Shown here: piece after piece, positions 11,995 through 44,051 of the stretch
Numbering within the stretch: position 1 is the stretch's first letter
Layout of the letters: the number at the start of each line of letters is the position of its first letter
NCBI GenBank assembly: GCA_025655595.1
Contig: JAHXIO010000002.1
Coordinates: 124,001 to 188,000, forward strand
Length of the DNA: 64,000 nucleotides
Source: Candidatus Thiodiazotropha sp. (ex Monitilora ramsayi)
GTDB lineage: Bacteria; Pseudomonadota; Gammaproteobacteria; Chromatiales; Chromatiaceae
Reading direction: 5' to 3'
Position numbers and translations under genes: made by a program
Notes under the pieces: generated by a model
What the model saw: only the letters and a program-made list of their open reading frames with translations
Databases searched by the model: none
What the model was told of the DNA's origin: nothing

Positions 11995-12089
11995 TTTACC
12001 GATTGTTTAGTAACTGCTACAGACAACTATCTTCATAAGCAAAATTTTGGGTGGCCTTAGACTTGTTGAAAAACCATCTATCCGAGAAA

Positions 12090-15073: not shown

Positions 15074-16204
15074 ATGCCGCGGCTAGCACATACCATCTTC
15101 AGCCTGATCCTGGCCTCGACGCTACTCACTGCCTGCAGTAAACCGCCTCCCCCACCTTCCGCCGAGGTGGTCCGCCCGGTGAAGACCTTCCTCATAGAAA
15201 CCGCCGGTACGGGGGGTATCCGATCCTTTCCCGCCCGTATCGACGCTGGCCGCAAGGCCGAGATGTCATTTCGTGTCTCAGGCAAGGTCGCCAAACTGAG
15301 TGTCAAAGAGGGGGACCGGGTTGATAAAGACCAGGTAGTAGCGAGCCTAGACCCAACCGATTATCGGATTAAATATAACGATCGAAAGGCGAATTTCGAC
15401 AAGACCGAGAAGAACTTTAAACGAGCACAAGAGCTGGTGAAGAAGGGCAACATCTCGAAAATGGACTTTGATCGCCTCGAAGCCGACTACAAGAGCGCCA
15501 CCTCAGCCCTGGAGTCGGCGCAACAGGATCTCAACTACACCAAGCTGACCGCCCCTTTCAGCGGCAACATCGCAAAACGACATATCCAGGCCTTCGAGGA
15601 GGTACAGGCTAAGCAGATCATCTTCGATTTGCAGGACCTGACTCAGCTCGAGGTCAAATTCGATGTACCAGAGAACCTGCTGCGCGGGATTCAGGGCGTC
15701 AATGACAGGGACGCCGTACGGGACCGCAAGCCGATCCCCACCTTTGTCTCGTTCTCCGACAATCCGGAGGAGCGTTACCGTCTGAAATTCCGTGAAGTCA
15801 GCACCAAGGCTGACGCGAATACTCAGACCTTCGAGGTCACCTATACCATGGAGGAGATCGATGGCGTCACCATCCTGCCGGGTATGACCGCAAATGTGAC
15901 CGCAGACCTCAGCAGCCTAAATAGCGAAGATGTCATTCACACCGTTCCCTCCAGCGCCATTGTCGGTGACTATAAGCTCGACCCAACTGCATGGGTGGTG
16001 GATGAGGAGTCGATGACGGTCAACCCCCAGCCGGTCAAGGTAGGACGTCTTCTCGGAGACAGGATCCAAGTCCTCGAGGGACTGGAGGAAGGCGACCGTA
16101 TCGTGACCGCTGGCACACCATTCCTGATCGATGGGATGAAGGTCACGATAATGCCGGATCGGGAGCAGGCCACACCAAGACCCGATGATCTGAAATACCA
16201 GTAG
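15074..16204 (+). CDS. RND efflux periplasmic adaptor lipoprotein
   Basis: A 376-residue HlyD/MFP-family adaptor. The N-terminus is a lipoprotein signal with LTAC as lipobox, followed by a proline-rich linker. The barrel-sandwich hybrid (about 45-180) contains the lipoyl-like halves around a helical hairpin (NFDKTEKNFKRAQELVKKGNISKMDFDRLEADYKSA). The beta-barrel and membrane-proximal domains follow. The start has AAAGGAG nine bases upstream. It lies 38 bases before the RND permease and forms a two-gene pump operon; no outer-membrane gene is attached. Confidence 0.93.
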   Translation: MPRLAHTIFSLILASTLLTACSKPPPPPSAEVVRPVKTFLIETAGTGGIRSFPARIDAGRKAEMSFRVSGKVAKLSVKEGDRVDKDQVVASLDPTDYRIKYNDRKANFDKTEKNFKRAQELVKKGNISKMDFDRLEADYKSATSALESAQQDLNYTKLTAPFSGNIAKRHIQAFEEVQAKQIIFDLQDLTQLEVKFDVPENLLRGIQGVNDRDAVRDRKPIPTFVSFSDNPEERYRLKFREVSTKADANTQTFEVTYTMEEIDGVTILPGMTANVTADLSSLNSEDVIHTVPSSAIVGDYKLDPTAWVVDEESMTVNPQPVKVGRLLGDRIQVLEGLEEGDRIVTAGTPFLIDGMKVTIMPDREQATPRPDDLKYQ

Positions 16205-16242
16205 CCGCCCTCTCCTGAAAAATAACAATCAAGGGATAAGCG

Positions 16243-19200
16243 ATGAATATCGGCGAATATTCGGTCAAGACCCCAGTCATCTCCTGGCTGTTGGTGATTA
16301 TCATGGTGGGCGGCGGCATCTGGGCCTTCGATAAGATGGGCAAGCTCGAAGACCCTGCATTCACCATCAAGCAGGCCAAGATCATCACCTACTATCCAGG
16401 CGCCACGGCCAAAGAGGTGCGGGACGAGGTCACCTACCATATCGAAGATGCTATCCAGCGCATGGAGCAGATCAAACGGATCAAGATGTCGATCTCCCGG
16501 CCGGGCATGTCCGATATCGCCATTGACTTCAAGGATAAATACCGGGGCGATGATTTCCCCAATATCTACGACGAACTGCGACGCAAGATCGCGGACATGA
16601 AAGCCAAGCTACCCCCCGGAGCCCAAGATCCGATCATCGTCGACGACTTCGGTGATGTCTATGGCGTCTATCTCGCCCTCAGTGGCGAGGACTACACCTG
16701 GCGGGATCTGTGGGATACCGCTGACAGACTCAAACGGGAGCTGGTACTGGTACCCGGCGTACGCAAGGTCAATATCGGCGGTACCCAGAGAGAAGTGGTC
16801 TATGTAGACATCTCCCGCTCCCGCCTGGGTGAATTAGGCATCTCCCCCACTCAGATCGCACAGTTGCTCGCGTCCCAAAATGCAGTGGTCACCGCTGGTA
16901 AATCGGTGGTGGGAGACGAGTATCTGCGCATTCAGCCCACCGGTGAACTCACTTCTGTTGCCGGCATCGGTGACGTTCTTATCGGATCCGGTGATAGGAA
17001 GCTGGTCTATCTCAAAGACATTGCCACCATCACACGCGCGTACGAGGAGATGCCGAGCCTGATGTACTACGTCAATGGCCAGCCAGCGCTGACGCTGGGC
17101 GTCTCTATGCAGGCGGGCGAGAATGTGGTGGCCATCGGCCGGAGTCTGGATGAGAAAATAGAGTCACTTAAGTCGGTCATTCCGGTCGGCATGCAGTTGA
17201 CCTCGATCTACAATCAGCCTGGCGAGGTGGAGAAGTCGGTAAGCGGCTTTATCGTCAGCGTGGGCCAGGCAATGGGTATCGTCGTCCTTGTACTGCTCCT
17301 CTTCATGGGGCTTCGTGTCGGTTTCATCATTGGCTCGGTACTGCTGATCACGGTCGCCGGCACCTTGTTGATCATGCATCTCAATGGTATCGAGCTGCAA
17401 CGTGTCTCCCTAGGCGCTTTGGTCATCGCTCTAGGCATGTTGGTGGATAACGCCATCGTGGTGGCAGAGGGTATATTGGTACGGATGCAGGCCGGCATGA
17501 GTGCATCCAAGGCGGCGGGTGAGACAGTCGGCAAGACCATCTGGGCGCTGTTGGGAGGAACTATCATCGGTATCCTCGCTTTCTCCGCCATCGGTCTCTC
17601 TCAGGATGGTTCGGGTGAGTTCGCCAACTCCCTATTCTGGGTTATCCTCTATTCCCTGCTCCTCTCCTGGATCACAGCCATCAGTACCACGCCTTTGCTT
17701 TGCGCTCTGCTCATAAAAACGAGACAGGGCGGAGACAACATAGGAGCCGACCCCTACGCCAGCGGCCTGTTCAAATTATTCAGGGGAATCGTCGACCGGG
17801 CAATCCGACTGCGCTGGATGACTGTCGCTGTGGTCGTGGGTCTCTTTCTGCTCGCGTTGGTCGGCTTCGGCAACGTGAAACAGGCCTTCTTCCCTTCATC
17901 GAACACCCCCCTCTTTTTCGTCGACATCTGGGAGATCGAGGGTACCGATATACGACAAACCCGTGAAGATACCCTGTTGGTCTCCGAGTTCCTGCTTCAG
18001 CAGGAGGGGGTGCTGCAGACCAGCACAGTCATCGGCGGTGCTCACCAGCGCTTTACATTAGTATACGGCGCAAAAGAGGCCTCCCCTGCTTACGCGCAGA
18101 TCATCGTACAGACCGACACACTGGACCGAATCACTGACGTCTGGCAAAAAGTAAAGGTCTATATGGATAAGCATCTCCCCTGGACCGATCCCCTGATCAA
18201 GAGCATGCGCATCGGCCCGGGACGTGACGGCAAGATTGAAGCCAGATTACACGGCCCAGATCCCGACGTACTGAGAAAGCTATCCCTTCAGGCTATGAAC
18301 ATCATGCACGCCGATCCCGAGGCCAAGGAGATCCGGGACGACTGGCGTCAGCCGGTGAAACTGATCCGTCCGGTCTTCAATGAACAAGTGGGCCGACAAC
18401 TGGGTATCACACGTGAAACCCTCGCAGCCGCCCTGGAGCACGCATCAGAAGGAATCGCAGTGGGCAGCTTCAGGGACGGCATCCGGGTGTTGCCCATCTA
18501 TATGCGCGCCCCCGAGGATGAGCGGGAGGATGTGGGCAATCTGCAGGACATTACAGTCTGGAGTCCGGTGCTCAACCAGTCGGTGCCGGCAGGTCAGGTG
18601 ATCAGCCACTTCGACACGCTGTTCGAAAACACCGTCCTGCGCGCCAGGGACCGTGTACAGACCATCATCGTCTCCTGCAACCCGACAGGTGAACTGGCTA
18701 CCCCGTTGTTCAACCGCCTGAGACCGCAGATCGAGGCGATGGAACTACCCCCAGGTTACTCTCTCTCCTGGGGTGGTGAGTACGAAGACTCCCGAAACGC
18801 CCAGGCCGGTCTGGCCACCTCCCTGCCGGTCGGCTTCCTTGTCATGATCCTGGTCAGCATCCTGCTTTTCGGCAAGGTGCGGCAACCGCTCATCATCTGG
18901 CTGACGGTGCCACTGGCCGCTATCGGCATCACCGCAGGTCTGCTCGGTTTCAACGGCGCATTCGACTTCATGTCATTGCTGGGCGCACTCTCCCTGATCG
19001 GCTTGCTGATCAAAAACGCCATCGTGCTCATCGATGAGATCGACCAACAGATCGGTAGCGGCAAAGAAGCCTACAGCGCCATCCTCGACTCCACTGTCAG
19101 CCGTCTCAGACCGGTGGTGTTGGCAGCGGCAACCACTATTCTCGGATTGATACCGCTGTTGCAGGATGTCTTCTTCGTCAACATGTCGATCACCATCATG

Positions 19201-19287
19201 GCAGGATTGGGCTTCGCTACCTTATTGACACTGCTGATTGTGCCGACTCTCTACGCCATTATGTTTAAAATCAGACCGTCGAACTGA
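16243..19287 (+). CDS. RND efflux transporter permease (AcrB/HAE1 superfamily), pump 1
   Basis: A 1014-residue inner-membrane proton-driven exporter with the usual twelve helices and two large periplasmic loops. The TM4 proton-relay region reads GALVIALGMLVDNAIVVAEG. The second-half repeat of the fold ends ALSLIGLLIKNAIVLIDEID, with the lysine of the relay network. The N-terminus shows the normal short cytoplasmic start before TM1 (SVKTPVISWLLVII). The ribosome site AAGGGA lies six bases upstream. Substrates cannot be predicted; the divergence from AcrB suggests a small-molecule rather than a metal pump, because CusA-type methionine motifs are absent. Confidence 0.93.
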   Translation: MNIGEYSVKTPVISWLLVIIMVGGGIWAFDKMGKLEDPAFTIKQAKIITYYPGATAKEVRDEVTYHIEDAIQRMEQIKRIKMSISRPGMSDIAIDFKDKYRGDDFPNIYDELRRKIADMKAKLPPGAQDPIIVDDFGDVYGVYLALSGEDYTWRDLWDTADRLKRELVLVPGVRKVNIGGTQREVVYVDISRSRLGELGISPTQIAQLLASQNAVVTAGKSVVGDEYLRIQPTGELTSVAGIGDVLIGSGDRKLVYLKDIATITRAYEEMPSLMYYVNGQPALTLGVSMQAGENVVAIGRSLDEKIESLKSVIPVGMQLTSIYNQPGEVEKSVSGFIVSVGQAMGIVVLVLLLFMGLRVGFIIGSVLLITVAGTLLIMHLNGIELQRVSLGALVIALGMLVDNAIVVAEGILVRMQAGMSASKAAGETVGKTIWALLGGTIIGILAFSAIGLSQDGSGEFANSLFWVILYSLLLSWITAISTTPLLCALLIKTRQGGDNIGADPYASGLFKLFRGIVDRAIRLRWMTVAVVVGLFLLALVGFGNVKQAFFPSSNTPLFFVDIWEIEGTDIRQTREDTLLVSEFLLQQEGVLQTSTVIGGAHQRFTLVYGAKEASPAYAQIIVQTDTLDRITDVWQKVKVYMDKHLPWTDPLIKSMRIGPGRDGKIEARLHGPDPDVLRKLSLQAMNIMHADPEAKEIRDDWRQPVKLIRPVFNEQVGRQLGITRETLAAALEHASEGIAVGSFRDGIRVLPIYMRAPEDEREDVGNLQDITVWSPVLNQSVPAGQVISHFDTLFENTVLRARDRVQTIIVSCNPTGELATPLFNRLRPQIEAMELPPGYSLSWGGEYEDSRNAQAGLATSLPVGFLVMILVSILLFGKVRQPLIIWLTVPLAAIGITAGLLGFNGAFDFMSLLGALSLIGLLIKNAIVLIDEIDQQIGSGKEAYSAILDSTVSRLRPVVLAAATTILGLIPLLQDVFFVNMSITIMAGLGFATLLTLLIVPTLYAIMFKIRPSN

Positions 19288-19313
19288 AATAAAATACCCA
19301 CGGCTCAATAACA

Positions 19314-19335
19314 GGCCCTTCGGTTTCGAAGGGTC
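19314..19335 (+). terminator. Hairpin after RND pump 1
   Basis: Perfect 7-bp stem CCCTTCG/CGAAGGG (19316-19322 with 19327-19333) around a GTTT loop, extended by a G-T and a G-C pair. It starts 27 bases after the permease stop codon. No T-run follows, so it may be a 3'-end stabiliser or a weak terminator. Confidence 0.45.
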
Positions 19336-19642
19336 TACGCCGATTCCCATTGGATTGCACAATCTGTCTGGTTGCACTGCTTGCCTCTTCAGGTACCAAC
19401 GCCGCATGAATCGGTGGTGCGTTAGAGATCGATGATATTGGCCCGTCTGCCGAACTGATCTGCAACTCACTACACACCCGGCATCCCAACCACTCGATCG
19501 AAATCACCAACCGCCAATCAAGTCGGGCGACCACGTGGCGACTGATTACACCGTTATTGAGCAGAAGAACCGTGTCAGTTAGCGATTAGTCGGATTGGAA
19601 TGGATGATGGTTGAATCCATCGAGGCAAGGTCTGACTGACAA

Positions 19643-31751: not shown

Positions 31752-33515
31752 ATGTGGCAGCATGTACTGAGTCTTATGGCCGGATGGAAAAAGGCCTTTA
31801 TCCCCTTCCTGGACTGGATCGGCGAACTGAAAAACAAAGACACGGTACGAGCGGATGTGGTGGCCGGCATCACAGTGGCACTGGTCCTGGTGCCCCAGTC
31901 GATGGCTTACGCCCAGCTTGCGGGTCTGCCGGTCTATTACGGTCTCTACGCCTCCTTCCTGCCGCCAATGATCGCCGCCTTCTTCGGCTCCTCGAGACAG
32001 TTGGCCACCGGGCCCGTCGCCGTTGTATCGCTGATGACCGCCGCCGCCCTGGAACCCCTGGCGACCTCTCCCGACACCTATCTCGCCTATGCCATGCTGC
32101 TGGCCCTGATGGTGGGACTGTTCCAGCTGTTCCTCGGTCTGTTCAAACTTGGCGTACTGGTGGACTTTCTCTCACACCCGGTTGTGGTGGGCTTTACCAA
32201 TGCGGGTGCGCTGATCATTGCCACTTCCCAGTTGGGCAAGGTTTTCGGCGTCTTCGCGGAACGAGCGGAGCACCACTATGAAACGGTCTGGAATACGATC
32301 CTGGCCGCCGTTGAGGGGACACACTTCCCAACCCTGATGATCGCCATAATGGCCTTTGGCATCATGTGGGGCATCAAACGGTTCTACCCGGCACTGCCCG
32401 GCGTCCTGATCGCCGTGGTAATCACAACACTGCTCTCCTGGATGACCGGTTTTGGCGAAGCCGGCGGTAAAGTGGTCGGCACCATACCGGATGGGTTGCC
32501 GCCCTTCTCCATCCCGGTCATGGATGTCACCACGATCTGGTCACTGATCCCCACCGCCATCACCATCTCCCTGATCGGTTTCATGGAGGCGATCTCCATC
32601 GCCAAGGCCATGGCGGCCCAGACCCGGCAAAGACTCAACGCCAATCAGGAGCTGATTGGACAGGGTCTCTCCAACGTATTTTCCGGTGTCTTCTCCGGCT
32701 ATCCGGTTTCGGGCTCCTTTTCACGCTCGGCGGTCAACATCAACGCGGGCGCCATCACCGGCTTCTCATCCATCGTCACCGGTGCGGTGGTGGGCATCAC
32801 CCTGATATTCCTGACACCGCTGCTCTTCCACCTGCCCCAGGCCACCCTGGCGGCGGTGATCATCATGGCGGTGATCAACCTGATCAAGATTGAACCGATC
32901 ATCCATGCCTGGAAGGCGCAGCCGCACGACGCCATCGTGGCCGTGGTCACCTTCGTGCTGACACTGGTTTTCGCTCCCCATCTCGACAAGGGCATCATCA
33001 TCGGCGTGCTGCTCTCGCTGGGACTCTTCCTCTGGCGCACCATGCGTCCCCGTTTCGCTCAACTCTCCCGCTACGAAGACGGCACCATGCGTGACATCCG
33101 GGTGCATCCGCTGCCGACCAGCCCCGTCATCTCCGTCGTCCGCTTCGACGGCTCCCTCTACTTTGCCAGTGCCGGTTACTTCGAAACCAAGATGCTGGGC
33201 ATCGTAGCGAGCAATCCCGACCTGAAATACATCATTCTTGACGGTGAGGGCATCAACCAGATCGACGCCACCGGCGAAGAGGTGCTGCACCATCTATGGG
33301 AACGCCTGCAGGCCCAGGGAATCACTCTGGTGGTGGCGCGCATGAAGAAGCAGTTTATGGACACCATCCGCAGAACCGGTCTGCGCGAGAAGATGGGGGA
33401 CAACTTCTACTCTCGCATCGGTTTGGCGCTGAACTATGTGTGGAATCAACTGGGGGACACCTACGACCGGGAGACCTGCCCACTGCGTAGCCCTGAAAAC
33501 GTCGACAAAGCCTGA
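31752..33515 (+). CDS. SulP-family anion transporter with STAS domain, candidate bicarbonate transporter
   Basis: A 587-residue SLC26/SulP protein. The start ATG 31752 is chosen (AGGGTGAT seven bases upstream); longer upstream versions add non-homologous residues. The first helices contain DVVAGITVALVLVPQSMAYAQLAGLP, the classic SulP signature. The hydrophobic part has about 10-14 helices, and a cytoplasmic STAS domain follows at about 445-560 (VVRFDGSLYFASAGYFE, IILDGEGINQIDATGEE). SulP proteins carry sulfate or bicarbonate. The position 69 bases upstream of a DAB locus favours a bicarbonate role, but in a sulfur oxidiser sulfate remains possible. Confidence 0.88.
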   Translation: MWQHVLSLMAGWKKAFIPFLDWIGELKNKDTVRADVVAGITVALVLVPQSMAYAQLAGLPVYYGLYASFLPPMIAAFFGSSRQLATGPVAVVSLMTAAALEPLATSPDTYLAYAMLLALMVGLFQLFLGLFKLGVLVDFLSHPVVVGFTNAGALIIATSQLGKVFGVFAERAEHHYETVWNTILAAVEGTHFPTLMIAIMAFGIMWGIKRFYPALPGVLIAVVITTLLSWMTGFGEAGGKVVGTIPDGLPPFSIPVMDVTTIWSLIPTAITISLIGFMEAISIAKAMAAQTRQRLNANQELIGQGLSNVFSGVFSGYPVSGSFSRSAVNINAGAITGFSSIVTGAVVGITLIFLTPLLFHLPQATLAAVIIMAVINLIKIEPIIHAWKAQPHDAIVAVVTFVLTLVFAPHLDKGIIIGVLLSLGLFLWRTMRPRFAQLSRYEDGTMRDIRVHPLPTSPVISVVRFDGSLYFASAGYFETKMLGIVASNPDLKYIILDGEGINQIDATGEEVLHHLWERLQAQGITLVVARMKKQFMDTIRRTGLREKMGDNFYSRIGLALNYVWNQLGDTYDRETCPLRSPENVDKA

Positions 33516-33584
33516 CACCGATGCCGGTATGTAGGTCAACGCGGCCTTTCCCACCCAGCAAGTTGTATCGCCGGGTGAGCTGCC

Positions 33585-35048
33585 ATGCCTAGTCTCAGCT
33601 ACTTACTGCTGGCGCCTCTGGTCGGTGCCCTGGTGATCGCGTTTCTTCCCCGCTCGGATTCGGGCGGCGCGATTCGCGCCACTGCGCTCCTGGCCTCGGG
33701 CATCACACTGATACTGTCCTGGACCTATCTACTCGAATTCGATATCAACCAGCCCGGCCTGCAATTTCTGCAGGAGGTTGCCTGGCATACCCGCCTTGGC
33801 AGCTCCTTCGCGCTGGGCCTCGACGGCTTCTCCTATCCCATGGTGCTGCTGGCCACGCTGCTCAGCTTTGTCGCCCTGCTCGCCTCCGCCAGTGTTAAAA
33901 CACGGATCAAAGGTTACTACATCCTGGTCTTACTGCTTGAGACCGCCATGCTCGGGGTCTTCATGGCGCAGGACTGGTCACTCTTCTACATCTTCTGGGA
34001 ACTGACCCTGATCCCCCTCTTCTTCCTGATCGACCGCTGGGGAGGGAAAAACCGTCACGGTGCCGCACTCAATTTCGTGCTCTATACCATGGGCGGATCA
34101 GTCTTTATGCTGATCAGCCTGTTGGTACTTTTTGACGCCGTGCCCGGACACTCCTTCTCCATGGCGGCGATGGCGGAGAGCGGCCGTGGACTGCCGCAGC
34201 ACACCCAGGTATTGATTTTCCTCGGCTTCCTGATCGGATTCGGCGTCAAGATGCCGATCTTTCCCCTACACGGATGGCTCCCGCTTGCCCACGTGGAGGC
34301 GCCCAGTCCCATCTCGATCCTGCTCTCTGGTATTCTGCTGAAAATGGGCTCTTACGGCCTTTTACGTGCCGCCGGCATGCTGCCGGACGCGGTGGAGACT
34401 CTGCAGGGCCTGCTGGCGGTGTTGGCCTTCGTCAGCCTGATTTACGGTGGCTTGCTGGCCTGGCGGCACAGCGATCTCAAGGCGATGATCGCCTACTCGT
34501 CCATCAGTCACATGGGCGTGGTACTGCTCGGCATCGCCGCCCTCAATCTGGCGGGGTTGCACGGTGCACTGATGCAGATGGTCGCCCACGGCCTGGTTGC
34601 CGGTTCCCTCTTTCTGCTGATCGGCCTTCTCTATGAACGGACCAAGACCCGGGATGTGACCCACTACAGCTCCCTGGTCCGGGTCACCCCCAGATTTGCC
34701 TTTTTCACCACCTTCGCCTTCATCTCCGCTGTCTCCCTGCCCGGCACCGCAGGCTTCGTTGCAGAGCTGAATGCGCTGATCGGCGGATTCGCCCGCTGGG
34801 GCTGGGTTGCCGCCCTGCTGACGGTGGGCGTGTTACTGAGTGCAGCCTACGCGGTGCGATCTATCAGTCAACTTTTCACGGGTCCGGTCCGTCCGGGCAT
34901 GCGCGAGGTGGAGGACCTGAAACCGGTGGAGCTGCTGGCGGCGGGCACCCTGGCCGCCGGTACCCTGATCCTGGGTTTCATGCCGAGCCCGGTACTCGAC
35001 CTGGTGAACGCCTCCGCCACCCAACTCGCCCTGCTGTTCAACCCCTGA
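33585..35048 (+). CDS. NuoM-like proton-channel subunit A of the extended DAB locus
   Basis: A 487-residue inner-membrane protein with about 14 helices of the PF00361 antiporter-like family. The ion-path residues of NuoM are kept: glutamate in FYIFWELTLIPLFFLI (TM5), lysine in GVKMPIFPLHGWLP (TM7), lysine in LLKMGSYGLLR (TM8) and glutamate in GFVAELNAL (TM12). GGGTGAG precedes the ATG by six bases. It lies between SulP and dabA, 16 bases before dabA. No other Complex I gene is present, so it is not part of a nuo operon. It probably conducts protons (or Na+) to power the DabA reaction, which is an inference from context. Confidence 0.85.
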   Translation: MPSLSYLLLAPLVGALVIAFLPRSDSGGAIRATALLASGITLILSWTYLLEFDINQPGLQFLQEVAWHTRLGSSFALGLDGFSYPMVLLATLLSFVALLASASVKTRIKGYYILVLLLETAMLGVFMAQDWSLFYIFWELTLIPLFFLIDRWGGKNRHGAALNFVLYTMGGSVFMLISLLVLFDAVPGHSFSMAAMAESGRGLPQHTQVLIFLGFLIGFGVKMPIFPLHGWLPLAHVEAPSPISILLSGILLKMGSYGLLRAAGMLPDAVETLQGLLAVLAFVSLIYGGLLAWRHSDLKAMIAYSSISHMGVVLLGIAALNLAGLHGALMQMVAHGLVAGSLFLLIGLLYERTKTRDVTHYSSLVRVTPRFAFFTTFAFISAVSLPGTAGFVAELNALIGGFARWGWVAALLTVGVLLSAAYAVRSISQLFTGPVRPGMREVEDLKPVELLAAGTLAAGTLILGFMPSPVLDLVNASATQLALLFNP

Positions 35049-35064
35049 TGACGGTAACCGAGAA

Positions 35065-38000
35065 ATGAGTGCACAACAAACCGGCAGCGGAGACATCAGA
35101 CAGCAGATTCGAGAGTCCCTCGAACATCTGGCCCATGTGCTGCCCGGTCAGGCACCAATCAAGGATTTCGTACACCACAACACCCTGCACGGTTATCAGC
35201 ACCTCCCCTTCCCCGAGGCCCTGGCGGCCGCCCGCCGCCTCACTGGGGCGAGGGGCTACCAGCCGTCGGAGAAGTACCGGGAATACTATCGGCAAGGGAG
35301 AATCTCCAAGGAAGATCTGCTGGCCAGCATCGACGACGACCCGACGCTTGAGGCGGGCGTCGCTATCGTCGAAGCGGGAGAGATCGTCATTCGGCGACGG
35401 GACATCTACCTCGCGGCGCTCTCCCTGCCGCTGCAACCGGTATCCGGCTGTCAGCTCACCTGGCAGATCGATGAGGCCGGTGCCCTGGAGAAGCTCAACG
35501 GCGATCTGCCGGGTGAGACCAGAAAACGGCTGCTGAATCGTGCTGAGGAGAGCGGACTCTGTTCCGAAACTGCTGTGACGTCCGATCTCTGGCAGGCCTG
35601 TCTCGAGGCCCTGCATCTACAAGGGACACAACCCCACCCGGAAGAGCTGCTCGACCTGGCTCCCGAGCAGGCGGAGACGATGCTGCACGACATGCTGGAT
35701 GACGCGACCAGCAACAATAACAGCAACGTTTCCACCGCCACCCAGCTCATGCGGCAGGCCGCCAACGACCGCCTGACCGAACAGATGGAGCGGATCGGCA
35801 AGGACCACAGTGTTCGCGATTTCCTGTTGGGTCTGACCGGGCATGATCTGATGGACGACATCCGTCCGCGACTGGTGAGGGAACTCTCCAATTTCCTCGA
35901 CCAGGGTATCGCCGGGTGGCAACCGAAAGGCCTGGATCAGGGTTTTTACGCCTACTGGTGCGCCCAGGTTGAGAACGACCCCAACTGGCTGATGCAGGGT
36001 ATCGAGGGCTGGCGACAGTATCTCGAACTGCTCCACACCGACCCCATGGACACCATCTTCAGTGAGATGCACCGGTTGGGACTACCGCAGGAGAGATGGG
36101 TCGCTTATCTTGAGCGGCTCGCCCTGGAACTGCCCGGCTGGTCGGGCATGGTGTTGTGGCGTCACAACCATCCGGGCTATGAGGATCTCACTGCGAAGAT
36201 CGATATGATCGACTACCTGGCGGTTCGCCTGGTGCTGGAGAGGATCTACGCGCACCACCTCTGCGCCAAGCTGTTTCAGATAGAGTCCAGCCTCGATATG
36301 TTGCGCTGGTATTTCCGCCGCAACCATGACGAGTTCAACGTACGGGAGGCGCTCTTCAACGGCCGCCTGCCCGAATACCTCGCCAGCCGTGCGCAGCGTG
36401 CCGTCCACGCCCCTCTCAGACAGTCGGCACCCGGCGCCAGGTCACCCTGGACACACCTCTCCCACCTGATCTGGACCTGGCGTCACAGCGGCATGGAGGA
36501 GAAGACCGACCAGCCCACCCTTTGTCAGGGCGCCTGGCCGCTGTTTCAGATCGCCCAACGCCTGGGCCTCTATGGCGGTAATGTGCGTACCCTCTCCGAC
36601 AAGCAGATCGAGACGATCTTCAACTGCCTGGACAGACTGGATGAAGATCGGGCCGGCTATCTCTGGCTGAAGGCCTACGAACGTCACTATCGCGAACAGA
36701 TTCTCAAGGCACTGTCGCAAAACCATAGTCGCGGCGCCTGGTCCGACAGAGAGCAGCAGCCTGCCGCGCAGCTGATCTTCTGCATGGACGACCGCGAAGA
36801 GGGCATCAGACGTCATCTCGAAGAGCTGCTGCCGGAGGTCGAGACCCTGGGTGCGGCCGCCCACTTCAACGTCCCCCACAACTGGCGCGGACTGGACGAC
36901 AGCGATGTCACCCCTCTGGCACCCGTGGTGCCGGCCCCGGTGATCCCCGTCCATGAGGTATGCGAACATCCCACGAGTAGTGACCGGGAAACGGGCAAAA
37001 CACACCAACAAAGGCAAAACCGATTGGCGCAGATCGGTGAGACGCTGCTGCAAGAAGGTCGGCGCGGTCTGCTGGTCCCCTCTATCATGGCGGCGATCAC
37101 AGCACCTTTTGCCCTCGCACACCTTTCCGGCAAGATCCTCATGCCACGCGCTTTCGGTCTCTTCCTGCAGCGAGCCAGAGAGTGGCTGGTGCAGCGAGTC
37201 TCTACAAAGATCGATTACATTGCCCCCAATGACAGCCCCGAAGCGACCGTGGAGTCTCCACGTTTGGGATTCACCGATACGGAGCAGGCCGACCGGGTGC
37301 AGACCCTGCTGAAAAATATCGGCCTGACCTACGGATTCTCTCCCCTGGTCGCCATCATCGGCCATGGCTCCCGCAACCAGAACAACCCCCACGCCTCCGC
37401 CTACAACTGCGGCGCCTGTGCGGGACACTTCAGTGGACCCAATGCCAGGCTGGTCGCCGCCATGGCCAATCGGGCCGAAGTTCGCGCCCTGCTGGCCGAT
37501 CGGGATATCCATATCCCGGCCGGGTCACATTTTATCGGCGGCGAGCACGACACCTGCAACGACGTCATCGCCTGGTACGACCTGGACGATGTACCCGCTG
37601 ATCTTCGCGATCATCTGCAGCATCTGCGAAACAAGCTACAGGAGGCGGCGAATCTGCATGCACAGGAGCGCTGTCGGCGCTTTGCCTCGGCGTCGGAGCG
37701 GCTCGATCCCGCTCGCGCCTACGCCCACGTCGCCGGCCGGGCCCTCGATTTCTCCCAGGCCCGTCCCGAGCTGGGTCATGCCACCAACGCCTGCGCCTTC
37801 TTCGGCCGCCGCAGTATGAGCCGGGGTGCCTTTTTCGACCGGCGCTCCTTTCTGATCTCCTATGACGCCACCCAGGATCCCAAAGGAGAGGTGCTGGAGA
37901 GACATCTCCTGATAAACGGTGCGGTGGGTGCTGGCATCAGTCTCGAGTACTACTTCTCCACGGTGGACAACGAGGGTTACGGCTGCGGCTCCAAGGTGAT

Positions 38001-38385
38001 GCATAACGTCACCGGTTACCTCGGGGTAATGGAAGGGGCCAACTCCGACCTGCGTACCGGCCTGCCGAGACAGATGATCGAGATCCACGAAGCCATGCGA
38101 CTGCTGGTGGTGGTGGAGGCCAAGACGGAGACCCTGACCGCCATCTACCAGCGACAGCCCCCGCTGCAGGAGTTGGTCGGCAATGGCTGGGTGCAGCTCA
38201 CCGCCATGGATCCGGATGACGGCACCATCCACCTGTTCAAACCGGACAAGGGCTGGGTCAGGTGGCAGGCGGATCAGAAACCACTGCCTCAGGTGGACCG
38301 TTCGCCTGACTGGTATCTTGGTTATGACGGGCCCCTGGCCCCCACGCTGCTCAAGACGGCGGAGACGGGAGGTGCCCATGCCTGA
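35065..38385 (+). CDS. dabA: DabA (DUF2309), catalytic subunit of the DAB inorganic-carbon pump
   Basis: An 1106-residue protein of the DUF2309 family. In Halothiobacillus, DabA is a beta-carbonic-anhydrase-like zinc protein that hydrates CO2 one way to bicarbonate, driven by ion flow through DabB. All four active-site positions are visible: C573 and D575 in FCMDDREEG, and H767 and C782 in GHGSRNQNNPHASAYNCGAC. The 15-residue step between the latter two matches the known pair. No transmembrane segment is convincing, so it should sit on the cytoplasmic side of its membrane partner. It is longer than some DabA proteins; a less conserved stretch at about 625-700 precedes the second ligand pair. 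The gene overlaps the following dabB-like gene by eight bases. Confidence 0.93.
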   Translation: MSAQQTGSGDIRQQIRESLEHLAHVLPGQAPIKDFVHHNTLHGYQHLPFPEALAAARRLTGARGYQPSEKYREYYRQGRISKEDLLASIDDDPTLEAGVAIVEAGEIVIRRRDIYLAALSLPLQPVSGCQLTWQIDEAGALEKLNGDLPGETRKRLLNRAEESGLCSETAVTSDLWQACLEALHLQGTQPHPEELLDLAPEQAETMLHDMLDDATSNNNSNVSTATQLMRQAANDRLTEQMERIGKDHSVRDFLLGLTGHDLMDDIRPRLVRELSNFLDQGIAGWQPKGLDQGFYAYWCAQVENDPNWLMQGIEGWRQYLELLHTDPMDTIFSEMHRLGLPQERWVAYLERLALELPGWSGMVLWRHNHPGYEDLTAKIDMIDYLAVRLVLERIYAHHLCAKLFQIESSLDMLRWYFRRNHDEFNVREALFNGRLPEYLASRAQRAVHAPLRQSAPGARSPWTHLSHLIWTWRHSGMEEKTDQPTLCQGAWPLFQIAQRLGLYGGNVRTLSDKQIETIFNCLDRLDEDRAGYLWLKAYERHYREQILKALSQNHSRGAWSDREQQPAAQLIFCMDDREEGIRRHLEELLPEVETLGAAAHFNVPHNWRGLDDSDVTPLAPVVPAPVIPVHEVCEHPTSSDRETGKTHQQRQNRLAQIGETLLQEGRRGLLVPSIMAAITAPFALAHLSGKILMPRAFGLFLQRAREWLVQRVSTKIDYIAPNDSPEATVESPRLGFTDTEQADRVQTLLKNIGLTYGFSPLVAIIGHGSRNQNNPHASAYNCGACAGHFSGPNARLVAAMANRAEVRALLADRDIHIPAGSHFIGGEHDTCNDVIAWYDLDDVPADLRDHLQHLRNKLQEAANLHAQERCRRFASASERLDPARAYAHVAGRALDFSQARPELGHATNACAFFGRRSMSRGAFFDRRSFLISYDATQDPKGEVLERHLLINGAVGAGISLEYYFSTVDNEGYGCGSKVMHNVTGYLGVMEGANSDLRTGLPRQMIEIHEAMRLLVVVEAKTETLTAIYQRQPPLQELVGNGWVQLTAMDPDDGTIHLFKPDKGWVRWQADQKPLPQVDRSPDWYLGYDGPLAPTLLKTAETGGAHA

Positions 38386-39934
38386 ACAGTACGCCGGCCT
38401 GATACCCCTGCTCTACTGGTTGGCCGCTGCCTGGATCGGCGCCGGTTATCTGCTGAACCTGAACCGCGGTGAGTCGGGAGAGAAGCATACGGCCCTGGTC
38501 GCCACTTTGGCCGCCGCGGCATCACTCATCCTTGTGCTTGTTCTCGCCGCCATGTCGGTATTTGAGGGTGCACCGGGTGCGGTTGAACTGGGCACCTGGT
38601 TTCGCAGTGGCGAATACTCCCTGCCGCTCAGTTTGATGCTGGACACCCTGAGTCTGTCGATCTCGACCATCGTCTCCCTGATCGCGCTGCTCGTGATCCG
38701 CTTCTCGGTCAACTACATGCACCGGGAGAGCGGGTTTCAGCGCTTCTTCATACTATTGTGCCTCTTTGCCGGCGCGATGAATCTGATCGTGTTGGCGGGC
38801 AACAGCCTCCTGATGTTTGCCGGTTGGGAAGTCGCCGGGGTCAGTTCATTCCTGCTCATCGGCTATGCGATCGAGCGACCCACCGCCACCCGTAACGGTG
38901 TGCGGGCCTTCGTCACCAACCGGATCGGCGATGCCGGTTTCATCCTGGGAATGGTCCTCTCCCTGTTGTGGCTGGGTGGGCTCGACTGGCAGACCCTCTC
39001 CCAGCGTGGCGGGGAGATCGAGACCCTGGCCGCCGGCCTGGTCGCCAGCGGTTTTGTCATCGCTGCCCTGGCCAAGTCGGCCCAACTCCCCTTCTCCCCC
39101 TGGATCGCGCGGGCACTCGAAGGACCAACTCCCTCCTCCGCTATCTTCTATGGCGCGCTGATGGTGCATGCGGGAGTCTATCTGCTGATTCGTCTGGAGC
39201 CGCTCCTGCAGCAGGCACATGCAGTCATGATCGGCATCGCTGTACTGGGCGCACTGACCGTGCTCTATGGCTGGCTCTCCGGCCTGGTCCAGTCCGATGT
39301 GAAGAGCGCACTGATGTTCTCCACCACCACCCAGGTGGGATGGATGTTCGTCTGGTGTGGACTCGGTTGGTTCACCCTGGCCGCCTGGCACCTGGGACTG
39401 CATGCCATCTGGCGGGCCTTCCAGTTTCTCTCCGCACCGGCTCTGCTCTATCAGGTCGAAGGGCCTGCCCGTCCGGTACCGCCATGGCTCTCCCGTTTCC
39501 GCTGGCTGCACCAGGCGGCCCTGCATCGCTTCTGGGTGGAGCCTTTGAGCGATACCTTGTTGGTACGGCCCACGGCATCACTCTCCCGCGATGTACAGTA
39601 TTTCGATGAGCAGATCGTCACCCGGGTGGTGGGACTACCGGCCTATACCCGCAGCGTCTCCTCTCTCGCCCAGTGGGAGATGCTGAAGGAAAGAGCGTCT
39701 CAGTCTGATGCGGAGGCCATCGGCAAAGGCACCGGTCTGGCGGGCAAACTCATGACCTGGCTTGCGGACATCCTCCACTGGTTCGAGTCTCGGCTGGTGT
39801 TGAGCGGCGGCGGCGAGGGGCTGCTGAAACACCTGCATCGTATCGGCGGGTTGCTGACAAGGGTGGAACAGTTACTGGCGGAGCCACGCTATCTGATCGT
39901 GTTGATCGTGGTGACTTTCGTGGTGATTCTGTGA
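38378..39934 (+). CDS. dabB: DabB-like membrane subunit (NuoL/MrpA-type)
   Basis: A 518-residue inner-membrane protein of the PF00361 family, closer to NuoL than NuoM: it has the LMLDTLSLSISTIVSLIALLVIRFSVNYMH start, glutamate in MFAGWEVAGVSSFLLIG, lysine in ALAKSAQLPFSPWI and histidine in ALMVHAGVYLLIR. It is shorter than NuoL and lacks the long lateral helix, as DabB proteins do. ATG 38378 is chosen because GGGAGG lies five bases upstream, inside the dabA end; a longer frame has no support. The eight-base overlap with dabA implies translational coupling. It is the best candidate for the ion-driven partner of DabA. Confidence 0.88.
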   Translation: MPEQYAGLIPLLYWLAAAWIGAGYLLNLNRGESGEKHTALVATLAAAASLILVLVLAAMSVFEGAPGAVELGTWFRSGEYSLPLSLMLDTLSLSISTIVSLIALLVIRFSVNYMHRESGFQRFFILLCLFAGAMNLIVLAGNSLLMFAGWEVAGVSSFLLIGYAIERPTATRNGVRAFVTNRIGDAGFILGMVLSLLWLGGLDWQTLSQRGGEIETLAAGLVASGFVIAALAKSAQLPFSPWIARALEGPTPSSAIFYGALMVHAGVYLLIRLEPLLQQAHAVMIGIAVLGALTVLYGWLSGLVQSDVKSALMFSTTTQVGWMFVWCGLGWFTLAAWHLGLHAIWRAFQFLSAPALLYQVEGPARPVPPWLSRFRWLHQAALHRFWVEPLSDTLLVRPTASLSRDVQYFDEQIVTRVVGLPAYTRSVSSLAQWEMLKERASQSDAEAIGKGTGLAGKLMTWLADILHWFESRLVLSGGGEGLLKHLHRIGGLLTRVEQLLAEPRYLIVLIVVTFVVIL

Positions 39935-39944
39935 GGAACAGGAG

Positions 39945-41459
39945 ATGGTGATAGAAGAGATCCACTGGTCATCGCAGATCGCCTACCCGATCCTGTCGCT
40001 GCTGCAGGTACTACCTATCGGCGCGGTGATACTGCTCTGGTTGCTGCGTCGCTCGCAGTGGATGGTCCCTGCCGGTATCGCCGTCGCCGCTCTGGAGTTT
40101 CTCGTCAGTGTGGATCTGTGGCGAAATTACGACGCCAGTCACAGCGGCATGCAGTTCAGCGAGTCGATGAAACTCTTCGACTACCTGCACTACCACACGG
40201 GGGTCGACGGCATATCGGTGGTCTTCATCCTGATGACCGGCCTGTTGACCCTGCTCATCACCCTCTACGGCGTGGTCAGGAATCTCAAGCCGTTCCATCG
40301 TCTCTACACCTTCACCTTCATGGTGCAGGCCACCCTGATGGCGCAGTTCGTGACGCTGAATCTGCTCTGGTTCGTTCTACTTTCGGCCATCCAGCTGGGA
40401 CTGATCGGCTATCTGCTGTGGCGCTGGGGCAACTCACCGGATAAGGATCTGGCATTACGGCGCTTCTACCAGTTCATGAGCGTCAGCATCCTATTGCTGA
40501 TCGGTGGAGCCGTCGTCCTGGGATGGAGCTACTCCGACAGCCATACCGGCACCTGGAGTTTCGATCTCATCCAGCTCGCCACCACACCGGTGTCGGAGGC
40601 TTTCCGCACCGTCGCCTTCTTCCTGCTCTTCTACGGCCTGGCGATTCGCACGCCCCTGTTCCCGCTGCACGGCTGGCTGCCGATGATCGCCGAGCACGGC
40701 AATGTGGCGGTGGCGCCCACCTTCCTTCTCGGTCTCAAGATCGGCATCTACGGCATGCTCAGGTTTGTCCTGCCCCTGTTGCCTACCGCCGTGATGGAGT
40801 GGCACAGCTATGTGGTGGCATTCGCTCTGACCGGGATCTTCTACGCCGCCTTTCTCGCCATGATGCAGGACAATCTTCGTCGGCTGCTCGCCTACGCAGT
40901 GATCTCTCACACAGGCATTCTGGTACTGGGTATTTTCAGTCTCGAACATGCCGCATTCATGGGGAGCGTGATTCTCTCCGCCACTTTCGGTCTGGCACTG
41001 GCAGCACTGGTCTTCACCACCGGCCTGCTCTACCGCCGCACCCATACCACGCTGCTGCATAACCTGGGCAGCCTGTTCGACACCTTGCCTTTTCTCGGCA
41101 TCACCTTCCTGATCGGCGGTCTTGCCATCGTCGGCATGCCCGGTACGCCGGGATTCGATGCGGTCCATCTGATTCTGGAGTCGGCGATCCACCGCTTCGG
41201 CGCACTGGTCACCATCGCCGCCGCGCTGGGTAATGTGGTGGCGGCCGGTTTCCTGCTGTGGGCCTTCCAGCGGGCGTTTCTCTCTCCCCGTCCGGCCGGT
41301 GCGCGACCGTTCCAGGTGATTCCGGTCAATCGTGCGGAGATCTTTGTCGTCAGTGCGCTGATTCTGGTGCTGCTCGGCGCCGGTTTCTATATCGAGCCCT
41401 GGTTGACGCTGGTGGATAAACCGCTCTCGGCGCTGAGTGCGCTCTACGCAACACCATGA
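39945..41459 (+). CDS. Degenerate NuoM-like subunit B of the extended DAB locus
   Basis: A 504-residue inner-membrane protein of the PF00361 family with about 14 helices. The fold-defining region RTPLFPLHGWLPMIAEHG is intact, but key charges are lost compared with its neighbours. The TM5 glutamate is replaced (WFVLLSAIQLGLIGYLL, alanine or isoleucine at that place). The TM7 lysine is arginine (AIRTPLF). The TM12 glutamate is valine (GFDAVHLIL). The TM8 lysine remains (GLKIGIYGMLR). It may therefore be a structural or non-pumping subunit. AGGA precedes the start by seven bases, and the gene lies 10 bases after dabB. Confidence 0.83.
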   Translation: MVIEEIHWSSQIAYPILSLLQVLPIGAVILLWLLRRSQWMVPAGIAVAALEFLVSVDLWRNYDASHSGMQFSESMKLFDYLHYHTGVDGISVVFILMTGLLTLLITLYGVVRNLKPFHRLYTFTFMVQATLMAQFVTLNLLWFVLLSAIQLGLIGYLLWRWGNSPDKDLALRRFYQFMSVSILLLIGGAVVLGWSYSDSHTGTWSFDLIQLATTPVSEAFRTVAFFLLFYGLAIRTPLFPLHGWLPMIAEHGNVAVAPTFLLGLKIGIYGMLRFVLPLLPTAVMEWHSYVVAFALTGIFYAAFLAMMQDNLRRLLAYAVISHTGILVLGIFSLEHAAFMGSVILSATFGLALAALVFTTGLLYRRTHTTLLHNLGSLFDTLPFLGITFLIGGLAIVGMPGTPGFDAVHLILESAIHRFGALVTIAAALGNVVAAGFLLWAFQRAFLSPRPAGARPFQVIPVNRAEIFVVSALILVLLGAGFYIEPWLTLVDKPLSALSALYATP

Positions 41460-41471
41460 GACACCGGAACC

Positions 41472-42974
41472 ATGACCAGTATTGAACAGATGAACAACCT
41501 GCCGGTGCTCTCATCCCTGCTCCTGCTTCCCTTACTGGGGGCCGCGGTGATCTGGATGCTGCCGCGGAGCAAAGCGAGACTTGTGGCGTTGCTCACGCTG
41601 ATTGCCGCACTGGTACCGGCACTGATGACGGTGATCGGGCTGGATGCCGCCAATGCAGACTTTCAATTCACCGAACAGTATCCCTGGATCCCGGCGCTGG
41701 ACGCCCACTTTCGATTTGGCGTGGATGGTATATCAGCGCCGTTTCTACCCCTGACCGTGCTGTTGTTCATTGCTGTGGTGCTCGCATCCTGGACCAGCAT
41801 CCAGTCCATACCCAGGGTCTACTATACCCTGCTGATGCTGTTTGCATCCGCCACACTGGGCGTCTTCATGAGCATCGACGCCCTGGCGTTCTTCCTCTTC
41901 TGGGAGCTGACTCTGGTACCGCTCTACTTCCTGATCAGTCTGTGGGGCATCGGTCCCCATCGGCGCTACGCCGCCACCAAGTACACCCTGTTCATGCTGG
42001 CCGGCGGCATTCCCCTGCTGCTCGCCATCGCTTTTCTCGCCTTCAACCACGCCGAGGTCATGGGCGCAACCCCGCCCGCGGGCCTTTCGTTCGACTACCG
42101 AACACTGCTGGAGACACCGCTGACACCGGGACTTGAGATCATCGTCTTCCTCTTTCTGCTGATTGGATTCGCCGTAAAAACACCGCTCTTTCCCCTGCAC
42201 ACCTGGCTACCCATCGTCGCTCTGGAAGGGCCGGCGCCGGTCGCCGCCCTGTTGGTGGGCCTCAAGCTGGGCGCTTATGGGCTGATCCGTTTCACCGTGC
42301 CGCTGGCACCCACGGCGGCGCAGGAGCTTCACTGGTTGCTTGCGGGACTGGGGGTGATCGGTGTCCTCTACGGCGCTTTGGCGGCTTTCAGTCAGACCAA
42401 TCTGCGCCGCATGCTGGCCTACTCTTCCATGAGCCACGTGGGACTGGTGGTGCTCGGTATCGCCTCCTTCAGCCACCAGGGTCTTCAGGGCGCGGTCTTT
42501 CAGCTGTTGAATTTCGTGGTCATCGCCGGCGGTCTCTTTCTCTTGACCGGCTACCTGCACCATCGCCTGGGATCGACCGATCTCATCCATCTCGGCGGCA
42601 TCGCCCAGCGCATGCCCCTGCTGGCGGCGTTTTTCATGTTCCTCGGGCTGGCTTCGCTCGGTATTCCCGGCACCAGCGGTTTTCCCGCAGAGTTTCTGAT
42701 TCTGTTCAGCGCGCTGGAGACCCACACCGGCGCCGGCCTGGCGGCGCTGTTCGGCATGATTATCGGTGCCGGATATCTGCTCAACAATTATCGTCAGAGT
42801 TTTTACGGCCCAGTGACCCAGGATCAGGTCAGGGTTGCGCAGGATCTACGCACCCGTGAGCTGATCACCATGCTGGCCTTTACCCTGCTGGTGCTTCTGT
42901 TCGGCTTTTTCCCCGGCCTCCTACTCGACCTGACTGATGCCACGGTCACCAGTTGGCTGACACGGATGCAATAG
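41472..42974 (+). CDS. NuoM-like proton-channel subunit C of the extended DAB locus
   Basis: A 500-residue PF00361 membrane protein with about 14 helices. The ion-path residues are all kept: glutamate in FFLFWELTLVPLYFLISLWG, lysine in AVKTPLFPLHTWLPIVALEGP, lysine in GLKLGAYGLIR and glutamate in GFPAEFLIL. It resembles subunit A (33585-35048) more than the degenerate subunit B between them. It lies 12 bases after subunit B and is the last plus-strand gene of the operon. It converges with the carbonic anhydrase gene, with six bases between stop codons. Confidence 0.85.
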   Translation: MTSIEQMNNLPVLSSLLLLPLLGAAVIWMLPRSKARLVALLTLIAALVPALMTVIGLDAANADFQFTEQYPWIPALDAHFRFGVDGISAPFLPLTVLLFIAVVLASWTSIQSIPRVYYTLLMLFASATLGVFMSIDALAFFLFWELTLVPLYFLISLWGIGPHRRYAATKYTLFMLAGGIPLLLAIAFLAFNHAEVMGATPPAGLSFDYRTLLETPLTPGLEIIVFLFLLIGFAVKTPLFPLHTWLPIVALEGPAPVAALLVGLKLGAYGLIRFTVPLAPTAAQELHWLLAGLGVIGVLYGALAAFSQTNLRRMLAYSSMSHVGLVVLGIASFSHQGLQGAVFQLLNFVVIAGGLFLLTGYLHHRLGSTDLIHLGGIAQRMPLLAAFFMFLGLASLGIPGTSGFPAEFLILFSALETHTGAGLAALFGMIIGAGYLLNNYRQSFYGPVTQDQVRVAQDLRTRELITMLAFTLLVLLFGFFPGLLLDLTDATVTSWLTRMQ

Positions 42975-42980
42975 GACCTG

Positions 42981-44051
42981 TTAACCGGGTCTGCTCTCCT
43001 GCAGAACCTCCAGCTCCCTTGATTGCCAATTGAGCACGGCGGTCTTCTCATACATCTTTTTCGCCAGATCGGGAAAGGCGTCGCGGATCTGCTGGGCGGC
43101 GAATTCGCGCATGAACTGGGATTTCAGCTCGGCCCTGGCGCGATCGACACCCAGCTCCTGGTAGGGCACAGACGCCAGCAGGAGGAAACCGTCGTCGGGA
43201 ATGCGCCCGGCGCTCATATTACTCTCGATAATGCCCGCCGCCTTATGGATCGGCACCGCCAGATTGGGGCTGTAAGGGCCGATGATCAGGGCCAGATTGG
43301 GCATGTGCAGAAAATCGAATCCCCGCCCGATGCAGATCATCCACTCACGGTGCACGTTGTCGAGCAGTCTATCCGCTTGTCTCGCTTCATCGATATGGTC
43401 CAGATTGCCTGATATCAACGGCAGAAGATCCTGCCGCATCTGAGCGCTCATATCCGGGAACAACCGCTCCAACCTGGGTAACAGGGTATCTTTGTCGCCT
43501 GGGCCTAAAGTGGACATATCGAGCTGCTCACCCTCGCTGCCATGCAGGATCAGCGCGTCCTCATCGGTCTCGAAACCGCAGACCACCGGATAGACCGTAC
43601 TGTGACCCACACCAAAGACCTGCTCCATCTGCTTTTTGATCTGATAGGTATGGGCCTTAGCCGCCTCGGTATCGTAGTTGAAACCGGCACAACCCCGCTG
43701 GGGATCCCCCTTTGAAAAGTGGTAGGTGATGAGGAACATCGACCTGCGCCCATCAGAGACGATGTTCTGCAGATAGTTGGAGAGGACCTCGCCCAGGTGG
43801 GGCCAGCCCAGGTTGAACATGCCCCCGAGATTGCGAAACGGCTGGATGATGCCCCGCGGCGTATTGGTGGCGACCGGGATGTTGATGCGACCGTCCATAC
43901 ACTTCAGTACGGCGATCGATGTGGGGTGTTCGGCCAGGTAGCGGGTACGCGCCAGCCAGCTGTCGGGGCTGCTGTAGTTCTTGGAATGGCGGCTGGCATG
44001 CTCCAGCAACCATTCCATTCTCTCTTCGATGGGCTTGTTATGTATATCCAT
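42981..44051 (-). CDS. CsoSCA-like beta-class carbonic anhydrase
   Basis: A 356-residue soluble protein that should interconvert CO2 and bicarbonate. The beta-class zinc ligands are visible as C51 with D53-x-R55 (KCMDGR), H111 (TYHFS) and C121 (RGCAGF). The H-x9-C spacing is longer than the H-x2-C of ordinary beta enzymes and is close to that of the carboxysomal shell enzyme CsoSCA. ATG 44051 is chosen (AGGAG six bases upstream), not the longer frame to 44105. No carboxysome shell or RuBisCO genes are in the window. It converges with the DAB operon, so it is separately controlled. If cytoplasmic and active, it could undo the bicarbonate build-up made by DabA, so location or regulation matters. 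Confidence 0.82.
   Translation of the reverse strand: MDIHNKPIEERMEWLLEHASRHSKNYSSPDSWLARTRYLAEHPTSIAVLKCMDGRINIPVATNTPRGIIQPFRNLGGMFNLGWPHLGEVLSNYLQNIVSDGRRSMFLITYHFSKGDPQRGCAGFNYDTEAAKAHTYQIKKQMEQVFGVGHSTVYPVVCGFETDEDALILHGSEGEQLDMSTLGPGDKDTLLPRLERLFPDMSAQMRQDLLPLISGNLDHIDEARQADRLLDNVHREWMICIGRGFDFLHMPNLALIIGPYSPNLAVPIHKAAGIIESNMSAGRIPDDGFLLLASVPYQELGVDRARAELKSQFMREFAAQQIRDAFPDLAKKMYEKTAVLNWQSRELEVLQESRPG

Follow-up and report, generated by a model that had tools for sequence, protein, structure and literature searches.

What does a DabA protein do with four antiporter-like partners? The question is raised by a locus in a 64,000-nucleotide stretch of contig JAHXIO010000002.1 (this whole stretch is called the window below), where genes for a SulP-family transporter, a NuoM-like protein (MA), DabA, the NuoL-like DabB and two further NuoM-like proteins (MB and MC) follow one another on the forward strand. 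We found that MA-DabA-DabB-MB-MC is a conserved core, and that alignments with loci holding a single antiporter-like gene show a reciprocal residue swap between DabA and DabB. We put at about one half the probability that this five-gene core is an extended dissolved inorganic carbon (DIC)-accumulating complex (DAC), namely a proton-driven CO2 hydrase that would be coupled laterally through MA and MC.

Results

The five-gene core is conserved across genomes

Within the window, MA (33585 to 35048) is followed by DabA, a beta-carbonic-anhydrase-like cytoplasmic subunit of 1106 amino acids (35065 to 38385; PF10070, 775 bits), by DabB, with 518 amino acids and a NuoL-like portion spanning transmembrane helices (TM) 1 to 11 (38378 to 39934), and by MB (39945 to 41459) and MC (41472 to 42974). 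Counted from the SulP gene onward, the gaps are 69, 16, -8, 10 and 12 bases, the negative value being an 8-base overlap of dabB with dabA. All four antiporter-like proteins match PF00361 (221, 129, 114 and 206 bits in Pfam). MA, MB and MC score above the NCBIfam cut-off for the NuoM subfamily (NDH_I_M; 491, 291 and 459 vs 263.8 bits). DabB is NuoL-like, yet falls below the NCBIfam cut-off for the NuoL subfamily (273 vs 407.5); its family profile matches NdhF over residues 4-370, with 298 bits for the whole chain and 174 bits for DabB2. Among PDB sequences, the sole match of DabA at E 0.001 is DabA2 of the Halothiobacillus neapolitanus DAB2 complex (9rd0_A, E 2.5e-68). The closest named relative found for this DabA is that of Candidatus Thiodiazotropha sp. 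(ex Monitilora ramsayi), at 95% identity, and one DabA was found in the host genome.

The sequence-only reading of this DNA had proposed that the extra NuoM-like genes belong with dabA, an idea that would suffer if homologous loci rarely kept them. Counting PF00361 neighbours across genomes gave the opposite result. We examined 181 DabA loci, made up of 80 from a contig scan with this DabA, a set skewed toward its close relatives, 100 taken from genomes that have a PF10070 match, and the window itself. One antiporter-like gene 5′ of dabA and three 3′ of it were found at 86 of these loci, the window included, and with the same order at so many loci we rejected a local accident of gene order. 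A further 75 loci have one antiporter-like gene 5′ of dabA and none 3′ (one-partner loci), and the remaining 20, which comprise loci at contig ends, broken or surplus pieces, one duplication, orphans and irregular cases, stand outside the residue counts. A fairer sample comes from the host's phylum, in which 397 genomes were searched and 66 full-length DabA matches were obtained: 41 are one-partner loci (40 of them with at least 3 kb on the 3′ side), 21 carry all four partners as one set (one with a split MB), three have no detected antiporter-like neighbour and one lies at a contig end.

Among the 75 one-partner loci are three that belong to the extended type but are truncated where the contig stops, and L224, which is extended and carries an insert. 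The eight of the 75 with 3 kb or less on the 3′ side of DabA were dropped, among them L010, L032 and L045, three relatives of the window that run off their contigs. L224, mis-sorted as one-partner, was dropped from the residue counts and remains in the 67 loci of the SulP count. Two extended and three one-partner DabAs were dropped for long open frames.

Several loci depart from the common layout. In L224 (oriented; 6860-19367) a 4.6 kb insert separates dabA from dabB in an otherwise extended module, and in L049, a Thiothrix metagenome-assembled genome (8433-23126), the order MA-DabA-DabB-DabA-DabB-MB-MC places two DabA-DabB pairs in one set of M subunits. In L223 (oriented by DabA; 6668-18602) SulP is followed by DabA and then directly by a cluster read as Mrp-type, with MrpE-, B-, D- and A-like proteins and a NuoM-like protein, names that were assigned by eye; this DabA has, by eye, an Asp in the finger described below, and its junction to an antiporter cluster is a further kind of enlargement.

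DabA and DabB differ in opposite ways from their one-partner relatives

The zinc site of the window's DabA (C573, D575, R577, H767 and C782; 36781 to 37410) aligns with C351, D353, R355, H524 and C539 of DabA2, the roles of which are taken from PMC13144422. The Cys, His and Cys ligands are kept in 84/84 extended and 64/64 one-partner DabAs, and the Asp and Arg in 83/84 and 64/64, respectively.

The finger hairpin of DabA is another matter. In the DAB2 cryo-EM structure this finger of DabA2 enters DabB2, its Glu444 occupies the place of NuoL TM12 Lys399 and Asp400, and both E444A and E444Q abolish activity (PMC13144422). In the window the corresponding hairpin (residues 665-690; 37057 to 37134) aligns with Ala677 at the place of Glu444. 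A Glu stands at this position in all 64 one-partner DabAs and in none of the 84 extended DabAs, which have A in 39 cases, L in 13, T and V in 9 each, D in 5 and other residues in nine. The same split is seen independently of the alignment column, with an acid anywhere in the hairpin in 64/64 one-partner vs 6/84 extended DabAs, and after removal of near-copies (Glu in 62/62 vs 0/71). An Asp occurs in the hairpin of L064, L070, L074, L077 and L235, all extended; the first four are Nitrosospira and Methylobacter records in which MB is more diverged (37-39% identical).

The reverse pattern is found in DabB. Glu151 (38828 to 38830) corresponds by alignment register to NuoL Glu144, located in TM5, and to DabB2 Ile151. 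This TM5 Glu is present in 86/86 extended and 0/66 one-partner loci, where I (24), H (13), V (10) and others are found instead, and in 73/73 vs 0/64 after removal of near-copies. The registers of DabA2 and DabB2 were verified against printed alignments. L203, a long-branch relative beside the extended clade, by eye keeps the TM5 Glu and has no acid in the finger. In DAB2, Ile151 is described as the equivalent of NuoL Glu144, a member of ion pairs near the subunit interface, and introducing a Glu there halved the growth yield (PMC13144422). Extended DabB retains the NuoL-type interface ion-pair residues E151, R182, D185 and K233, and has an invariant TM8 His.

Furthermore, extended DabB appears to lack TM12-15. 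In family-averaged hydropathy, the region after TM11 shows none of the four hydrophobic segments of NuoL and one-partner DabBs; the C-terminal tail (39473 to 39934) is predicted as a TM-free stretch that ends in a single terminal TM (about residues 505-517). Pfam matches to this tail are weak (the commonest, DUF7833, in 13/60 members with a best E of 0.001) and were not used. Because the finger Glu is lost and DabB appears to be without TM12-15, parts of the outer half-channel that has been put forward for DAB2 would be missing from the extended type.

MA and MC keep proton-path residues

The three NuoM-like subunits are not alike. MA (E139, K222, K253 and E394) and MC (E145, K236, K265 and E407) have the full set of TM5 Glu, TM7 Lys, TM8 Lys and TM12 Glu, and these are conserved throughout the non-redundant loci wherever the alignment has a letter. 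MB is degenerate (A148, R235, K265 and V407): across non-redundant loci its TM5 Glu is found in 0/73, an Arg replaces the TM7 Lys in 73/73, and its TM12 Glu is found in 0/72 with a letter at that place. An earlier proposal for this locus was a longer proton wire of the Complex I kind. On the residue evidence, coupling of the extra subunits to DabB is favoured, which upholds part of that proposal, but four equal proton paths are not expected, since MB has neither the TM5 nor the TM12 Glu and DabB appears to be without TM12-15.

Sampled subunits group by type in the trees

We built a tree of 59 antiporter-like rows, sampling 10 rows per group and including one NuoL row; the row labelled NuoN is a piece of NuoM, so that NuoN is not represented. 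The rows of MA, DabB, MB and MC fall into one clade apiece (support 100/100, 100/100, 100/100 and 98/93, respectively). The DabBs of extended and one-partner loci join (99/95) apart from the single NuoL row, MA clusters with NuoM of the host (95/90), and the clades of MB and MC are sister groups (91/85). A separate, quickly built tree of 66 DabAs unites the extended ones in one clade, which includes the orphans L172 and L207.

Neighbouring genes are optional and the host has no detected carboxysome shell

The gene upstream of the core encodes a SulP-family anion transporter with a STAS domain (31752 to 33515, forward strand; PF00916 Sulfate_transp 372 bits, PF01740 59 bits), which scores 137 bits against the 880 required for the BicA equivalog. 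Of the 75 extended loci with room for it, 25 have a co-directional SulP gene upstream; of 67 one-partner loci, none does. At the other end, a convergent carbonic anhydrase of 356 amino acids (44051 to 42981, reverse strand) matches PF20686 at 27.5 bits (cut-off 21.5) and carries the motifs C51-x-D-x-R and H111-x9-C121. Of the 74 extended loci that offer 1.5 kb of room downstream, 14 have such a gene there, with the motif in all 14; matches at L002, L004, L021 and L073 fall outside this count, having short flanks or lying in other places. The sequence-only reading had counted both genes as parts of the system. As SulP is present in only 25/75 and the anhydrase in 14/74 extended loci, both are optional and the core is MA-DabA-DabB-MB-MC. 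The description of the anhydrase as CsoSCA-like holds for the catalytic domain, to which it is a relative; the likeness is partial, and the protein lies far below the cut-off of the CsoSCA equivalog (TIGR02701, 41 vs 241 bits).

Open reading frames (ORFs), Pfam and NCBIfam bear out the gene order and coordinates first read from the DNA, including the convergent anhydrase. They also agree with the earlier view that this is not a nuo operon, as the gaps in the run are too small for nuoA-K-type genes: there is no ORF in the run for NuoA, H, J, K or the peripheral redox subunits and no space for one, and MrpB, C, E, F and G are absent from the run by ORF list, gaps and Pfam searches of its seven proteins. 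A stray nuo operon was rejected, with a nuoL/M/N-like trio sitting on another contig of the host (PF00361; NuoL 792 bits). An Rfam scan of positions 25000-50000 gave nothing above cut-offs; promoter-like sites were below the shuffled expectation (1 vs a mean of 4.2) and terminator-like sites close to the shuffled mean (12 vs 9.1).

The host genome encodes two RuBisCO large chains about 5 kb apart (L285, 4543-6063 and 11364-12746) and two further PF00484 carbonic anhydrases elsewhere; PF00936, the carboxysome shell family, has no match in it. The first RuBisCO chain is followed by an ORF of 132 amino acids, and a VWA-domain protein, presumably CbbO-like, lies between both chains. We compared genomes by type for RuBisCO, which was found in 3/24 extended-type, 1/2 orphan, 12/12 DAB1-type (12 of 15 genomes covered) and 5/42 DAB2-type genomes, and for shell proteins, found in 1/24 extended-type vs 15/15 DAB1-type genomes in a test run on the 24 extended-type and 15 DAB1-type genomes and on 2 orphan genomes, but on none whose only locus is of the DAB2 type. 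Because 15 of the 24 extended-type genomes come from two families (f52 and f56), this sample is uneven and does not amount to 24 independent cases. With RuBisCO in just 3/24 extended-type genomes, a tie to RuBisCO was rejected, as was membership in a carboxysome locus, given one shell-bearing genome in 24 and none detected in the host; as a rule, then, feeding a carboxysome is not what the extended type does.

A second Complex I-related cluster spans the end of the window (60184-64000) and positions 1-8293 of L284. It encodes an MnhB-like protein, two PF00361 proteins, NuoH-, NuoB- and NuoC-like proteins and a protein of 380 amino acids that is NuoD-like by eye and without the CxxC motif; it may be an Mrp-linked hydrogenase-related or Mbx/Ehr-like complex.

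Discussion

How could the five proteins work together? In Complex I, the TM5 side of each antiporter-like subunit faces the TM12 side of the previous subunit. DabA sits on the TM12 side of DabB in DAB2 (PMC13144422), and with the geometry of Complex I this would leave the TM5 side of DabB free for an M subunit. We propose that cytoplasmic DabA, carried on a cut-down NuoL-like DabB, would hydrate CO2 to bicarbonate at its zinc site, and that the TM5 face of DabB would dock on the TM12 face of MA or MC. Protons would pass inward via MA and MC, and the membrane arm would relay their movement laterally to DabB and on to DabA, switching the latter on; MB would serve as a structural subunit or end cap, and the tail of DabB would clamp the arm. 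The whole would resemble the membrane arm of Complex I in reverse, driving a carbonic anhydrase. To the specific route, with protons entering at MA and MC and energy running through the TM5 Glu-TM7 Lys pair of DabB so as to replace the finger-glutamate half-channel of DAB2, we give somewhat less than even chances. In a host without a detected carboxysome shell gene, bicarbonate could go directly to other carboxylases, or to RuBisCO after dehydration by cytosolic carbonic anhydrase, which fits the window's host.

Several points weigh against this proposal. The residue swap is strongly conserved, but since the two types parted once, deep in the tree, it counts as a single contrast between clades and not as many independent events. 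Five of the 84 extended DabAs have an Asp at the finger position and six have some acid in the hairpin. Two DabAs of the extended clade, at L172 (8188-11574) and L207 (8326-11595), lack any detected DabB or M gene nearby (within about 8 kb). Covariation between subunits (MI-APC, 73 loci) gave noise, with high scores scattered in every pair, and yielded no subunit order. For the 159-residue DabB tail, the best match among PDB sequences is weak (NdhF 565-617, E 0.0078), and a comparison with a profile of 31 NuoL (hhalign) found the same place with P 0.012 and a probability of just 3.7%. The equivalent region of NuoL is the lateral helix HL, and the resemblance of the tail to a lateral-helix-like arm is suggestive only. 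Finally, no CO2-uptake assay for the extended clade was found in the literature searched.

The three NuoM-like proteins could instead make up an independent Na+/H+ or H+ antiporter that simply shares a transcript with a standard DabA-DabB pump. They are kin to Mrp subunits, and the DabA of L223 adjoins a cluster read as Mrp-like. We nevertheless consider this unlikely, because the genes are interleaved, with one NuoM-like gene 5′ of dabA and two 3′ of dabB, and because the run has no space for Mrp B/C/E/F/G genes; in addition, the interface Glu of DabB is kept in extended and lost in one-partner loci, and the TM12-15 present in stand-alone DabB are not seen in the extended protein.

An equally improbable reading turns the direction around, so that CO2 hydration or outward bicarbonate flow would power ion export through the arm and conserve energy. 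Such a direction has been suggested for an unspecified exergonic reaction (PMC5700660), and the lack of RuBisCO in 21 of the 24 extended-type genomes, 15 of which belong to two families, means that a RuBisCO-linked role is not general. Against it, DACs accumulate DIC in cells (PMC13144422), and the bicarbonate could serve other carboxylation routes.

We hold it to be slightly less probable again that DabA and DabB are the entire pump and that the M subunits do no more than regulate or stabilise it. Both DAB2 and MpsAB do rescue carbonic-anhydrase mutants as pairs, without M subunits (PMC13144422, PMC6689103). However, the pair studied here is without the finger Glu and, by hydropathy, without the TM12-15 that DAB2 uses, and MA and MC retain proton-path residues that plain scaffolds would not need. 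Least likely is an arm coupled to Na+ instead of H+, in which SulP might act as a Na+-bicarbonate partner, since DAB2 assays showed no sodium need (PMC13144422), even if MpsAB has been argued to use Na+ (PMC13144422, PMC6689103) and relatives of the host inhabit marine clams.

If the laterally coupled DAC is correct, it would be a redox-free arm that drives simple zinc chemistry, and would bear on lateral energy transfer between antiporter-like subunits, a long-standing question for Complex I. DabB E151, DabA A677 and the charges of MA and MC would be direct sites for a test. More than one proton could be spent per CO2 hydration and bicarbonate accumulated without carboxysomes; a carbon pump with such a higher proton-to-CO2 ratio may be useful for engineering carbon uptake, and would help to understand carbon fixation in symbionts and other bacteria that have no carboxysomes.

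Comparison with known systems

The carbonic anhydrase of the window shares with CsoSCA the catalytic domain, the Cys-x-Asp-x-Arg motif and the His...Cys pair, and differs by its length of 356 amino acids, its score below the equivalog cut-off and the absence of a detected BMC shell protein from the genome. Cyanobacterial NDH-1MS, an NDH-1 for CO2 uptake (PMC13144422), embodies the same idea of a Complex I-type arm coupled to CO2 hydration; its driver is ferredoxin oxidation and it has no DabA. The extended run resembles the membrane arm of Complex I (NuoL/M/N) and Mrp in its one NuoL-like and three NuoM-like subunits with TM5, TM7, TM8 and TM12 charges, and differs in having DabA in place of NuoA/H/J/K, the redox subunits and Mrp B/C/E/F/G.

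The gene layout is already known and not new, because a 2017 paper had noticed the same one (PMC5700660). Its COGNAT 'clade C' comprises ybcC/COG3002 operons in which ybcC lies 5′ of a nuoL homologue, often with SulP (COG0659) and NuoM (COG1008). More membrane subunits were proposed there to move more ions, with energy flowing outward, which is the opposite direction to ours, and the portions of that account cited here give no subunit roles, topology or CO2 function (PMC5700660). The reciprocal residue swap, the topology of DabB and the subunit roles were not found in the literature searched, a search that did not extend to supplements.

The DAB1 type, found in carboxysome loci as DabB1, a small protein and DabA1, resembles the extended type in a DabA of about 1065 amino acids and in some inserts, and differs in having one antiporter-like subunit, a kept finger Glu and a His in TM5 of DabB in 13/15. 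DAB2 (PDB 9rd0) shares the PF10070 subunit, the zinc ligands, the Asp-Arg dyad and an adjacent NuoL-like DabB; it differs by having two subunits only, the finger Glu444, Ile151 in DabB and TM12-15. Gene order differs as well, with dabB before dabA in the one-partner loci fetched and after dabA in the extended type. The window's locus shows sequence features of a DAC/DAB in the wide sense, namely the zinc ligands, the D-R dyad and an adjacent PF00361 DabB, and departs from the DAB2 type at the finger (Ala677), at TM5 (Glu151) and, by hydropathy, at TM12-15 of DabB. What appears to be new here, from the alignments, is the reciprocal residue swap between the DabA finger and DabB TM5.

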